This document shows positions 32,124-35,802 of a DNA stretch of 64,000 bases, piece by piece. The stretch covers positions 1-64,000 of the forward strand of contig JAKOVQ010000014.1 of the NCBI GenBank assembly GCA_029781975.1, given 5' to 3'. The translations under genes and the position numbers were made by a program. Source of the DNA: Acidobacteriota bacterium. Lineage in GTDB: Bacteria > Acidobacteriota > Thermoanaerobaculia > UBA5066. Numbering within the stretch: position 1 is the stretch's first letter; each line of letters starts with the position of its first letter. The notes beneath the pieces are model-generated. The model had not been told where the DNA came from and searched no databases. It was given only the letters and a program-made list of their open reading frames with translations.

Positions 32124-32777
32124 TCACTTCCCGTCGCCCGCCTTCGCCGGCTTCTCCTTCTGGATGACGATCACCCTCACGTCGCGGTCACCGCCGGCCG
32201 CCGCCCCGGGCTCGTCCCCTTCGGAGACCCAGGTGAGCCCCGGCGCGATCACCGTCCCCTTGTCGAGGAGCTCCTGCAGGACCCCCTCGACGGCGCCGCG
32301 GGTCCTCGCGTCCATCTTCCCGACGCTGTCGAGCTTCGCGTCGCGAAGGACGTCGGCCGCGCTCCGCCTGGGGGCGTCGCCGCTTCGGAAGACGAAGGCG
32401 TGCTTCGAGACCTCGACACGCCTCTCGCCGTCCCCCGTCAGGAGGACGCTCGTCCCGTCCCCCTCGTGCAGGGTGCGGACCTTCATCTCCTTCTCCCCGA
32501 CCCTGACGGTGTAGCCCTCGTCGGTCCGGGTGATCGTCACCGGCGTCCCGTCGCCGGTCGCGGTCACCTTCACGTCGCCCGCCTTCATCGGCTCGAGCTT
32601 CAGGACGGTCGGCTCGCGGTCCCGCGACGTCGAGACGGTGACGACCGTCTCCTCCGGGTCGGTCCGGTCGGCCTGGGCCGCACGCGGGAGCGTGACGAGG
32701 GGGGCGACGAGAGTCAGGACCGCTCCGGTCGCCAGGGCCCCGAACCCGAAGCGGGCGACGGCGCTCGTTCTTTCCAT
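32124..32777 (-). CDS. Exported protein, likely target of the adjacent NtrC-type system
   Basis: This 217-aa protein is unrecognised. Its N-terminus (MERTSAVARFGFGALATGAVLTLVAPLVTLPRA, ~33 residues) is a signal peptide or single anchor. The rest alternates short beta strands (TVVTVSTSRDREPTVL, DVKVTATGDG, TVRVGEKEMKVRTL) with one helical stretch (SAADVLRDAKLDSVGK... residues ~140-175) and a basic tail. No catalytic motif is seen. The ATG at 32777 has GGAGGA 5 nt upstream. Its upstream region holds a sigma-54-type promoter and two palindromes next to an NtrC-type regulator gene, so it is probably that system's output. A periplasmic stress or sensor-accessory role is speculative. Confidence 0.72.
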   Translation of the reverse strand: MERTSAVARFGFGALATGAVLTLVAPLVTLPRAAQADRTDPEETVVTVSTSRDREPTVLKLEPMKAGDVKVTATGDGTPVTITRTDEGYTVRVGEKEMKVRTLHEGDGTSVLLTGDGERRVEVSKHAFVFRSGDAPRRSAADVLRDAKLDSVGKMDARTRGAVEGVLQELLDKGTVIAPGLTWVSEGDEPGAAAGGDRDVRVIVIQKEKPAKAGDGK

Positions 32778-32828
32778 CAGTTCCTCCGGTCGGCTGCGAT
32801 GCGCCCGCGCGGCGGGCGTCCCCGGAAT

Positions 32829-32844
32829 CGCAAGACCGGGGCCA
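32829..32844 (-). promoter_or_regulatory. Candidate sigma-54 (-24/-12) promoter
   Basis: The minus strand reads TGGCCCCGGTCTTGCG. TGGC and TTGC are exact and have the correct register of the TGGCAC-N5-TTGC consensus (GG to GC 12 nt apart); three flanking bases deviate. The predicted start site near 32818 leaves a 40-nt leader containing the GGAGGA ribosome site of the gene starting at 32777. Confidence 0.6.
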
Positions 32845-32874
32845 GGAGACGTCCCCCGCCCGCCCTCCCCGCGC

Positions 32875-32890
32875 CTCCCGATTTCGGGAG
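32875..32890. promoter_or_regulatory. Palindrome, proposed enhancer site 1 for the NtrC-type regulator
   Basis: CTCCCGA-TT-TCGGGAG is a perfect 7-2-7 inverted repeat about 65 bp upstream of the predicted sigma-54 start site. A second, degenerate copy lies at 32895-32910, centre to centre 20 bp away (about two helical turns). Confidence 0.55.
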
Positions 32891-32894
32891 ATCG

Positions 32895-32910
32895 CTCCCG
32901 CTTTCGGGGC
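32895..32910. promoter_or_regulatory. Degenerate palindrome, proposed enhancer site 2
   Basis: CTCCCGCTTTCGGGGC differs from the perfect site at 32875-32890 at three positions (7, 15 and 16). It lies about 85 bp upstream of the predicted start site, on the same helical face, and 6 nt beyond the regulator's stop codon. Confidence 0.5.
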
Positions 32911-32916
32911 CGCACC

Positions 32917-34284
32917 TCACTCGCCGGGGGTAGCGAGGCCGTGCTTCTCCAGCCGGTAGAGGAACGCCTTGTAGGGGAGGTCGAGGAGACGGGCGGCCCG
33001 CGCGCGGTTCCCGCCGGCCAGGTCGAGCGCCTGGCGGAGGCATTCTCGCTCGTGCGTCTCCCACGAGAGGCCGCCGGGCGGGAGGCGGAACCCGCCGTCG
33101 CCGGCGGGCCGCGCGGCGAGGGAGTCCGGGAGGTCGTCCGGCGAGACCTCCCCTCCCTCCGACAGGAGGACGAGCCTCTCCACGACGTTCGCCAGCTCCC
33201 TCACGTTCCCGGGCCAGGCGTACTCCACGAGCCGCCGCAGCAGCGGCGGCGGAAAGGGGGCGACCCTCACGCCGTGCCGCCGCTCGGCCCGCCCGACGAA
33301 GTGCCGGACGAGGAGCGGAACGTCCTCCCTCCGCTCGCGGAGCGGCGGGAGGACGACGGTCACGACGTCGAGCCGGTAGTAGAGGTCCTGGCGGAACCGT
33401 CCCGCGGCCGCCTCGGCGGCGAGGTCGCGGTTGGTGGCGGCGACGATCCGCACGTCGACCGGGATCTCCTGCGTCGCGCCGATCCGGGTCACGGCGCCCT
33501 CCTGCAGGGCGCGCAGGAGCTTCGGCTGGAGCGGGAGCGGGAGCTCCCCCACCTCGTCGAGGAAGAGCGTCCCGCCATGCGCCGCCTCGAACCGTCCCTT
33601 CCTCGTCCGATCGGCCCCCGTGTACGAGCCCCGCTCGGCCCCGAAGAACTCGGCCTCGAGGAGGCTCTCCGGGACGGCCGCGGCGTTCACCGCGACGAAG
33701 GGCCCGCCGCTGCGGCGCGAGAGCGCGTGGAGAGCGCGCGCCGCCAGCTCCTTGCCGGTGCCGCTCTCGCCCGCGAGGAGGACGGTGGCGTCCGTCCCGG
33801 CGAGCTTCTCGACGCGGCGGAAGAGCTGCTGCATCGACGGCGCCGAGCCGACGAGGTCGACGAGCCGGTCCCGGTCGGCCACCTCCTCGGCGAGCCGCCG
33901 GTTCTCGTCGGCCAGGCGCCGCTGGCGGAGCGTCCGCTCCACCGCCAGGAGGAGCGCCTGCCGCTCGAACGGCTTGACCAGGTAGTCGTCCGCCCCGGCG
34001 CGGACGGCGGCGACGGCGTGGGCGATCGTCCCGTAGGCCGTCATCATGACGAACGCGGTCTCCGTCCCGCGCGCGCGGACCTCGGCGAGGAGCTCCAGGC
34101 CGTCGCGGCCGGGGAGCTTCCAGTCCGTCAGGACGAGGTCGACCGGCGAGCGGGCGAGCTCGTCGAGAGCCTCTCCCACGCTCCCCGCCTCGGCGACGGT
34201 CCACCCCTCGGCGCGCAGGATCGAGGCGACGAGGCGGCGCTGGTCGGCGTCGTCCTCGACGACGAGGAGGCGCTGCTCAGGCAC
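32917..34284 (-). CDS. NtrC-family sigma-54-dependent response regulator
   Basis: This 455-aa response regulator has a receiver domain (acidic pair D11/D12, phospho-acceptor D54 in VLTDWKLPG, T82, K104), an AAA+ sigma-54 activation domain (Walker A GESGTGKE at ~172-179, Walker B GGTLFLDEVGEL) and a C-terminal Fis-type helix-turn-helix (GGNRARAARLLDLPYKAFLYRLEKHGL). The sigma-54-contacting GAFTGA loop reads GSYTGA (219-224), a conservative change with F replaced by Y, so activity with sigma-54 is expected. It overlaps the kinase gene by 8 nt. The likely target is the exported-protein gene just downstream. Confidence 0.93.
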   Translation of the reverse strand: MPEQRLLVVEDDADQRRLVASILRAEGWTVAEAGSVGEALDELARSPVDLVLTDWKLPGRDGLELLAEVRARGTETAFVMMTAYGTIAHAVAAVRAGADDYLVKPFERQALLLAVERTLRQRRLADENRRLAEEVADRDRLVDLVGSAPSMQQLFRRVEKLAGTDATVLLAGESGTGKELAARALHALSRRSGGPFVAVNAAAVPESLLEAEFFGAERGSYTGADRTRKGRFEAAHGGTLFLDEVGELPLPLQPKLLRALQEGAVTRIGATQEIPVDVRIVAATNRDLAAEAAAGRFRQDLYYRLDVVTVVLPPLRERREDVPLLVRHFVGRAERRHGVRVAPFPPPLLRRLVEYAWPGNVRELANVVERLVLLSEGGEVSPDDLPDSLAARPAGDGGFRLPPGGLSWETHERECLRQALDLAGGNRARAARLLDLPYKAFLYRLEKHGLATPGE

Positions 34285-35719
34285 CGGCCCCCTCCTTCCT
34301 CGGCCCCGCGACGAGGCGCGCGGCCGTCCCCCGCGGGGCCCGGTCGTGAAGGGCGAGCTCGCCGCCGTACCGGCTCACGGCGATCCGGTGGGCGAGGAAG
34401 AGCCCCATCCCCGACCCCGCCGGCTTCGTCGTGACGTGCGGCGTGAAGAGCCGCTCCCTCACCTCCGCCGGAAGGCCCGGGCCGTCGTCCTCCACCTCGA
34501 GCGCCACGCGCCCCTCTTCCGCCGCCGCGACCCGGACCCGAACGGTCGCTCCGTCGGGGCTCGCCTCGACGGCGTTGACGACCAGGGCCTGGACGACCGC
34601 GGCGAGCTCGGGCGCGATCCCCCGGATCCGCGGCCCTCCCCCGTCGGGCGCCTCCAGCTCGATCCTCACCCGCCCGCGGGCGTCCTGGAGCGCCGTCAGG
34701 ACGACGTCGCGCGCCACGGCGCCGAGGTCGACCTCCTCGACCGACCCGGCGCCCGAGGCGGCGAGCGCGAGGAATCCCCGGATCGAGCCGTCGACGCGCC
34801 GGATCTGGCGCCGCGCCGACTCGGCGACCTCGGCGGCACCGGGGTCGTCGGCGAGCCGCCCCGCCATTTCGTCGAGGGTCAGGCCGATCGCGTGGAGGGG
34901 GTTCCGGAGCGAGTGGGCCATGCCGCGCGCCACCTCCCCCAGCTCGCCGAGGTGCTCGCGCTCCTTCAGCGCGAGCGCCTCCGCCTCGAGCCGTGCGAGC
35001 CGCGCCGACATCTGGTTGAAGGCGGCGATCGCCTCGCCCACCTCGCCTCCCCCCGCGGGGGCCGCCTGGACGCCGAACGTCCCCTGTCCCACCTCGCGCG
35101 CCGCGCGCGACAGGTCGCGGAGCGGGCGCGACACACGGTCGGCCGCGATCGCCGCCGCGACGAGCCCCACCCCGAGGAGCGTCAGGGAGCCGAGGAGGAG
35201 GCGCTGCCGGAATCGGTCGAGCGCCTCCCGCACCCCCGACGACGGGATCGGGATCTTCCGCTTGAGGTGAGGGCCCTCGACGACGAGGACGGGAGGAGCC
35301 TTGCCGGAGAGCGTCTCGGAGCGGAACGCGAACCACGTCGGCTTCCCCGCCCCCGGTGTCGGCGCGGCCGTGCCCGGCGGCGCGGGGCGCCCGTCGGCGG
35401 CCGCCGGCCCCGTCTCGACGTGCAGCGTCGTAACGACGACCCGGCGCTCGTGCCCCGACCCTCCCGGCTCCGGCAGGACGATCGTCCCGACCTCCTTCTC
35501 CGCCGGCGACCCGGGCTCCCCGGAGCCGGGAAGGGGGATCTTCACGGCGCCCTCCCTGGTCGTGAAGACGCGGACGACCTGCTCGCCGACCGAGCTGGCG
35601 ACCGTCGCCACCTCGACCGTCACGTCCCGCGAGAGCGACCGGAGGAGCAACCACTCCCCCGCCACGAGGGCGACGAGGAGCCCGCCGAACAGGACGAAGA
35701 GCTTCACGCGCAGCGACAC
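34277..35719 (-). CDS. Membrane sensor histidine kinase, partner of the NtrC-type regulator
   Basis: This 480-aa kinase has TM1 (VKLFVLFGGLLVALVAGEWLLL), an extracytoplasmic sensor of about 165 residues with no recognised fold and a Pro/Ala-rich loop (residues ~100-130), TM2 (LLLGSLTLLGVGLVAAAIAA), HAMP (DRVSRPLRDLSRAAREVGQG), a HisKA H-box GMAHSLRNPLHAIGL near residue 268, and an ATPase core with VVNAVEASPDG, EVEDDGPGLP and GSGMGLFLAH. The GTG start has GGAGG 7 nt upstream, and the gene overlaps the regulator by 8 nt. HSLRNPL is the NtrB-like H-box style. The signal is unknown. Confidence 0.92.
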   Translation of the reverse strand: MSLRVKLFVLFGGLLVALVAGEWLLLRSLSRDVTVEVATVASSVGEQVVRVFTTREGAVKIPLPGSGEPGSPAEKEVGTIVLPEPGGSGHERRVVVTTLHVETGPAAADGRPAPPGTAAPTPGAGKPTWFAFRSETLSGKAPPVLVVEGPHLKRKIPIPSSGVREALDRFRQRLLLGSLTLLGVGLVAAAIAADRVSRPLRDLSRAAREVGQGTFGVQAAPAGGGEVGEAIAAFNQMSARLARLEAEALALKEREHLGELGEVARGMAHSLRNPLHAIGLTLDEMAGRLADDPGAAEVAESARRQIRRVDGSIRGFLALAASGAGSVEEVDLGAVARDVVLTALQDARGRVRIELEAPDGGGPRIRGIAPELAAVVQALVVNAVEASPDGATVRVRVAAAEEGRVALEVEDDGPGLPAEVRERLFTPHVTTKPAGSGMGLFLAHRIAVSRYGGELALHDRAPRGTAARLVAGPRKEGAGA

Positions 35720-35802
35720 GGCAACCTCCGGCGACCTCGCGCCGCGGAGCAGGCTAGCAACTCCGGCGCCACGGCTTCGCCGTATCCTCGCACCCGGGCG
35801 GT

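Follow-up and report, generated by a model that had tools for sequence, protein, structure and literature searches.

A predicted sigma-54-dependent envelope signalling circuit with a conserved palindrome pair in Thermoanaerobaculia and Gammaproteobacteria

A 64,000-nucleotide stretch of DNA from an Acidobacteriota bacterium (class Thermoanaerobaculia; assembly GCA_029781975.1, contig JAKOVQ010000014.1, positions 1 to 64,000; hereafter the window) holds, between positions 32124 and 35719, genes for a sensor kinase, an NtrC-type regulator and an exported protein, all on the minus strand. The initial annotation had described them as a self-contained circuit in which the regulator drives the exported gene from a sigma-54 promoter, and the question raised by this locus is whether the exported gene is indeed the output of its neighbouring regulator. 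Analysis of the window, of its host genome (5.37 Mb in 54 contigs) and of related genomes led us to consider highly probable an envelope signalling circuit made up of the kinase, the NtrC-type regulator, paired sites acting as enhancer and a sigma-54-dependent exported output, with likely autoregulation. The elements on which this reading is built are the following:

32124..32777, minus strand: gene of an exported protein of 217 amino acids, ATG at 32777, with no Pfam or NCBIfam family
32829..32845, minus strand: CTGGCCCCGGTCTTGCG, predicted sigma-54 promoter of the exported gene, with predicted +1 at 32818 (by consensus match and conservation)
32875..32890, no strand assigned: promoter-proximal palindrome CTCCCGATTTCGGGAG (CTCCCGA-TT-TCGGGAG, perfect), predicted regulator site
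32895..32910, no strand assigned: distal near-copy CTCCCGCTTTCGGGGC (CTCCCGC-TT-TCGGGGC), 20 bp from the proximal palindrome
32917..34284, minus strand: NtrC-type regulator with receiver, Sigma54_activat AAA+ and Fis-type helix-turn-helix (HTH_8) domains
34277..34284, minus strand: 8 nucleotides shared by the end of the kinase gene and the beginning of the regulator gene, read from the sequence
34277..35719, minus strand: membrane sensor histidine kinase with two transmembrane segments (TM1, TM2), HAMP, HisKA and HATPase_c, the last three by Pfam

The circuit regulator is an NtrC-family response regulator by its domains and its loop: PF00072, PF00158 and PF02954 each scored above the Pfam cut-off, and the sigma-54 contact loop is GSYTGA, with G[AST][FY]TGA in all 42 orthologues considered below. 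A single match to rpoN was detected in the host genome. The kinase, whose variable periplasmic region between TM1 and TM2 comprises about 150 residues by hydropathy and alignment, adjoined the regulator in 36/36 loci of a first set and 6/6 of a second, contig ends cutting a few kinases, and the identical 8-nucleotide overlap was present in 10 of the 36 loci measured, including 8/8 of the window's family. In front of the exported gene, TGGC (32844-32841) and TTGC (32833-32830) stand at GG-N10-GC spacing, from which the same start, 32818, is predicted as had been proposed before. Relative to this +1 the palindromes are centred at about −65 and −85, and the CCC of the proximal one begins 45 bp before the −24 GG. 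The overlap, the loop, the −24/−12 element in its register and the perfect palindrome with its near-copy were thus all found where the initial annotation had placed them, as was the reading frame of an exported protein that it had called unrecognised. The ATG at 32777 has, by eye, a GGAGG Shine-Dalgarno sequence and a signal peptide; a longer reading frame starting with GTG at 32915 would span the promoter.

The palindrome pair was the sole one at up to 2 mismatches in the window, and 1 of 200 dinucleotide shuffles of this region of the window yielded a pair at up to 3 mismatches. In the whole host genome the loose pattern TCCCSNWWNSGGGA matched 6 places, as did its reversed control, and only the place in the window also fitted TCCC-S-A-W-W-T-S-GGGA, the consensus derived below.

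Orthologous regulators were searched for in 148 Thermoanaerobaculia genomes at an E value of 1e-140 or better, and were present in 31 of them, one copy each at that threshold, as well as in 7 of 299 genomes from the order of the gammaproteobacterium Pseudomarimonas arenosa, a cultivated carrier (order presumably Lysobacterales). A species-level scan at more than 57% identity, covering the best 80 of 154 relatives, returned the same groups and one metagenome-assembled genome labelled Planctomycetota (L024); the regulator of a further locus, L023, labelled Deltaproteobacteria, was positioned as in class genome G082. In total, 42 orthologous loci were read, 31 from the class, 10 gammaproteobacterial, and L024. 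A pair was defined as two TCCC-N6-GGGA sites 19-22 bp apart with jointly no more than 3 mismatches in the 16 fixed bases and at least 2 of the 4 central bases A or T, lying −60 to +300 bp around the regulator stop. The initial annotation had made its proposal depend on the conservation of the palindromes with this gene set, and a pair was detected after 38 of the 42 orthologous regulators versus 0 of 69 paralogous NtrC-type loci treated in the same way, with dinucleotide shuffles yielding one in 0.6%. No further pair at up to 2 mismatches was found in 258,620 bp around the orthologous loci. The 76 sites gave the consensus TCCC-S-A-W-W-T-S-GGGA (16.9 bits), the two sites of a pair being 20 bp apart in 23 loci, 21 bp apart in 12 and 19 bp apart in 3; as the search itself prescribed the fixed bases, an A/T-leaning centre and the 19-22 range, the independent information lies in the finer pattern of the centre and in the peak at 20-21 bp. 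The recognition segment of the helix-turn-helix, YKAFLYRL in the window, conformed to YK[AT]FLYR in 42/42 orthologues versus none of the 25 paralogues listed. The parts, their conservation and this association of regulator type with DNA site are direct results of the computation.

Promoters were scored with our own weights on the consensus YTGGCACG-N4-TTGCW. A forward −24/−12 site of at least 0.85 followed 39 of the 42 orthologous regulators, where about one was expected from the background (28 such matches in 526,460 strand-bases, or 0.024 per 450-bp region). Within the 64-kb window just two sites reached 0.86, the promoter of the exported gene and one at 35772(−) before the kinase. Behind the promoter, a reading frame with a hydrophobic N terminus, its start chosen by hydrophobicity and Shine-Dalgarno score, was present at 39 of the 42 loci and encoded 178-281 amino acids where complete; L163, L024 and L185, cut short or lacking an exported reading frame, were removed from the set by hand. 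Because pair, promoter and exported reading frame stay with the kinase and the regulator at most orthologous loci, and no pair follows the paralogues, conservation strongly supports the earlier proposal that this regulator has the exported gene as a sigma-54-dependent output.

In the window's family, exported gene and regulator were both present in 8/8 carriers and both absent from 6/6 non-carriers. A search with the exported protein of the window retrieved homologues in 10 of 100 genomes, its own included, all of them carriers of the regulator.

The spacing between pair and promoter was analyzed in the 37 loci that have both. In 16 of them the proximal CCC began 44-45 bp ahead of the −24 GG; the remaining distances were 55-58, 65-68, 89, 100, 111, 131, 168, 184, 225 and 349 bp, most of these loci being offset by about 11, 22, 44, 55 or 66 bp more, that is, by steps of about a helical turn. 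The 12 different distances of no more than 140 bp showed a phase concentration of 0.69 for a 10.5-bp period (p ~0.003) and 0.82 for 11.0 bp (p ~0.0003), and just 0.20 for 10.0 bp. This phasing supports looping without proving it, since the period was not preset and related loci are not independent. Three loci (L142, L144 and L146, from families f16 and f14) have two separate tandem palindrome pairs between regulator and exported gene, the second often degenerate.

From these elements we infer the following sequence of events. The membrane kinase would sense a periplasmic or envelope condition and phosphorylate the NtrC-type regulator, which would bind an enhancer made up of both palindromes, at a spacing of mostly 20-21 bp. 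Together with an RNA polymerase containing sigma-54, on which expression in the cell would depend, it would then switch on the exported gene from the −24/−12 promoter, 45 bp away in the window; the exported protein may feed back on the envelope, as the initial annotation had suggested, or on the kinase. A second sigma-54 promoter, absent from the initial annotation, would most likely make the kinase-regulator operon autoregulated:

35756..35772, minus strand: GTGGCGCCGGAGTTGCT, predicted sigma-54 promoter before the kinase-regulator operon, with predicted +1 near 35745

In the window, GTGGCGCCGGAGTTGCT begins 53 bp before the start codon of the kinase. In 24 of 32 loci, a −24/−12 site of at least 0.85 was detected within the 250 bp preceding the kinase, with 0.013 expected for each; L028 has no strong kinase promoter (0.67) yet keeps the rest of the circuit. 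Because a sigma-54 promoter precedes the kinase, the operon is probably autoregulated. No palindrome pair was present near the kinase promoter in the loci examined, some of which have single weak sites there; the activator might reach this promoter from the pair, which lies 2.9 kb downstream, from sites that we did not recognise or from solution. We regard it as a tentative and rather doubtful idea that the lone 3′ enhancer pair serves both the exported gene and, through a long loop, the regulator's own promoter about 2.9 kb upstream, and that the whole unit of kinase, regulator, enhancer, two promoters and a new exported protein family moved between Acidobacteriota and Gammaproteobacteria as a portable circuit; were the lone enhancer to serve the two promoters, this would be a naturally occurring long-range downstream enhancer in bacteria. 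Our literature search retrieved nothing on downstream NtrC enhancers. In the excerpted text of a study on Desulfovibrio, 23 sigma-54 operons have no predicted activator site and a few sites lie 40-70 bp downstream (PMC4641369), and the reference list of PMC3096577 contains titles on downstream elements of Caulobacter flagellar promoters.

The same element also occurs elsewhere in the host genome. At up to 2 mismatches, the pair pattern matched 5 places there, as many as its reversed control, and two of them overlap in a triple palindrome array at C24:482030-482081. This array is followed by a GG-N10-GC element, which scored 0.82, and by a gene for a 1405-amino-acid exported protein with 11 CarboxypepD_reg stretches (the region at 8031-12435 of L181, equal to C24:482030-486434 of the host genome). 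A blind pair search with 1 mismatch through 45 genomes, 22 with and 23 without the regulator, found the same element before CarboxypepD_reg homologues in G005 and G006, with −24/−12-like sites of 0.88 and 0.78. Its 15 places comprised 7 at the present locus, 2 at the second target and 6 elsewhere, 1 of them in a regulator-less genome; as the reversed control gave 9, single extra matches carry little weight. Four of the six were read (G003, G072, G102 and G127). The G072 place precedes a −24/−12 site (0.94) and an exported protein of the Beta-lactamase family (PF00144), one case among matches at background level; no −24/−12 site was found by script at the other three, and the G003 place resembles a kinase coding region by eye. 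A composite pattern (palindrome, 15-45 bp, −24/−12 site) matched 15 places in the 148 class genomes, 12 at this locus and 3 elsewhere (1 in a regulator-less genome), versus 4 in the reversed control. The same regulator thus probably controls at least one further exported protein in the host genome. Since another predicted target lies far away, with the same element before a CarboxypepD_reg gene both here and in two relatives, the description of the circuit as self-contained does not hold; it is local and probably not closed, with exported proteins as its predicted outputs. In some relatives the CarboxypepD_reg gene is present twice.

Several observations weigh against this interpretation. Four of the 42 loci fail the pair threshold, the pair being degenerate in L149 and L156, and L187 has two good palindromes that by eye are more widely spaced. 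Three loci have no promoter of at least 0.85 after the regulator: L140 (0.81), L024 and, by elimination, L185. In L024 the pair is present on a short contig with neither a −24/−12 site nor a recognisable exported homologue. The gammaproteobacterial locus L185 (G162) has an orthologous kinase and regulator with neither palindromes nor an exported gene behind the regulator; its best −24/−12 site before the kinase is not strong (0.70), and by eye a glnE-like gene comes next. The pair stands 168-349 bp away from the promoter in L025, L028, L161 and L162. The search with the exported protein of the window reached just 2 carriers beyond the window's family, as this protein diverges fast, so that position and a short core are the basis for its wider homology. 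No pair was found before the CarboxypepD_reg homologues of G009 (2), G011 (2, one with only 226 bp of upstream sequence available) and G004 (1), nor before the second copy of G006, the regulator being present in all; partial matches that lack a start (L224, L229) were left out. Finally, loci of one clade are not independent of each other.

These last homologues bear on the best of the alternatives, namely that another regulator binds the palindromes while the kinase and regulator act elsewhere and their neighbourhood is coincidental. Binding of the palindromes by the present regulator is something we infer, several second-target homologues in regulator carriers have no pair, and the regulator-less G002 and G008 keep a −24/−12 site (0.91 and 0.88) before their CarboxypepD_reg homologue with no palindromes, so that other activators may drive such genes; in G001 and in the second copy of G002 neither site nor pair was present. 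Against another regulator speak the pairs, which track the orthologues (38/42) and not the 69 paralogues, the recognition segment fixed in that same set of orthologues, and the joint presence or absence of exported gene and regulator in the window's family, and we judge this explanation improbable. A little less probable again is that the palindrome stretch is an operon terminator or an RNA element. It does lie directly 3′ of the regulator stop, where G+C-rich inverted repeats are typical of terminators, but no run of T follows the palindromes in the window, the two copies hold a spacing of 19-21 bp, and the distances to the promoter are phased. Moreover, one or both sites start inside the regulator reading frame in L157, L159, L161, L162 and L163, the pair lies 175-237 bp behind the regulator in L158 and L027, and the second target carries the same pair before an unrelated gene. 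That sigma-70-type promoters drive both the exported gene and the kinase operon, the −24/−12 matches being due to chance, is very unlikely in spite of a G+C-rich genome and a score of our own making, given the excess of such sites over expectation both after the regulator (39/42) and before the kinase (24/32).

The closest known design is ZraPSR (HydHG) of Escherichia coli; the present circuit is predicted to work alike and is not a ZraPSR member by the equivalog test, in which the regulator reached 391.1 bits against a ZraR cut-off of 760. According to the excerpted text of PMC8249747, zraSR is autoregulated, a periplasmic protein is its main output, and further targets identified by chromatin immunoprecipitation sequencing (ChIP-seq) belong mostly to the envelope stress response. 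Both systems share a membrane kinase, an NtrC-family sigma-54 activator, a periplasmic or exported main output and autoregulation, the last two predicted in our case; zraP is divergent, with the binding site in the shared spacer (PMC8249747), whereas here the exported gene follows the regulator on the same strand, with the sites in the gap separating the two, and no pair lies near the sigma-54 promoter that the operon has of its own. Domain order of regulator and kinase is also that of AtoSC and NtrBC, and AtoC was the best NCBIfam model for the regulator (438.6 bits), which nevertheless stayed below the cut-offs of the 25 models listed out of 116 matched (AtoC 714, NtrC 558.6). AtoSC and NtrBC have different targets and a different DNA site. 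Sigma-54 has been tied to genes of the envelope and the bacterial exterior (Francke 2011, PMC3162934), and in the Desulfovibrio regulome of 2015 the largest fraction of promoters lies within 100 nucleotides of the nearest activator site (PMC4641369); the excerpted text of these two papers does not describe the present operon, motif or exported family, and the string "acidobacter" is absent from the main text of PMC3162934. Judged by title, literature on sigma-54 or RpoN in Acidobacteria, Thermoanaerobaculia and Lysobacterales held nothing on this system, and six sequence versions of the palindrome were not found in the literature searched. Regulation in these bacteria has received little study, and the locus provides an activator for which DNA site, promoter and output are predicted, so that envelope sensing could be tested using a single regulator and a single reporter.

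In a regulator tree of 51 rows, with several long outgroup branches, the 42 orthologues formed one group (support 100/100). With the nine outsiders taken as reference, family f5 of the class branches off first, and the rows from Gammaproteobacteria group with the other class members (100/99); support was 63/78 for the gammaproteobacterial rows as one group and 86/88 for the remaining class rows. This topology favours passage of the circuit between phyla, with loss or ancient duplication as alternatives.

The exported proteins belong to a family whose promoter logic is kept over great distances and whose identity to the window protein drops to 13%. Its N terminus was read as follows:

32670..32777, minus strand: signal peptide, residues 1-36, with AQA before D37 (by eye; N termini in the family are hydrophobic)

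A core, "L--GE-R---TESGK-V-VTRTE-GL---VDG--I", and a C-terminal strand, "[KR]V-VI-K", recur by eye through much of the set. The Pfam scan of 39 members gave no credible match (best E 0.013), and no ZraP-type model was among the 15 weak families listed. An AlphaFold2 model of the window protein (mean predicted local distance difference test score, pLDDT, 68.7) was confident in a beta-meander (residues ~41-100) and a helical part (~141-170). Foldseek returned nothing at E ≤0.001 with this model, no solved fold clearly matched it, and none is named here. The best VIA-align Z, 4.8 to lipid-binding beta-barrels, is within the range of common arrangements. The PDB profile search gave 6 sequences up to E 1; a Rieske ferredoxin fold was dismissed, as this best match covered 28 residues of T4moC only (E 0.01) and the window protein has no cysteine. 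A similar K-V-V-I...G...L..EE motif was noticed by eye in exported proteins and in periplasmic regions of the kinases. Profile comparison of the two gave no basis for mimicry of the kinase sensor domain: the all-against-all score was 9.2, with no shuffles run, and three subgroups scored 12.5, 18.1 and 8.6, where 20 column shuffles of each reached at most 11.1, 18.7 and 8.4. As the two subgroups just above their shuffles matched over 11 and 1 columns (E 0.33 and 0.85), nothing is claimed from them. By eye, the exported proteins of L145, L147 and L149 have His/Asp-rich stretches, absent from the window protein, that may bind metal. In family f5, the seven readable proteins (L157, L158, L159, L160, L161, L162 and L164) share a C-terminal segment, CEETGS...P-x-[TS]GC, with two conserved cysteines, which was not seen in other alignment groups and could be a metal or disulfide knuckle.

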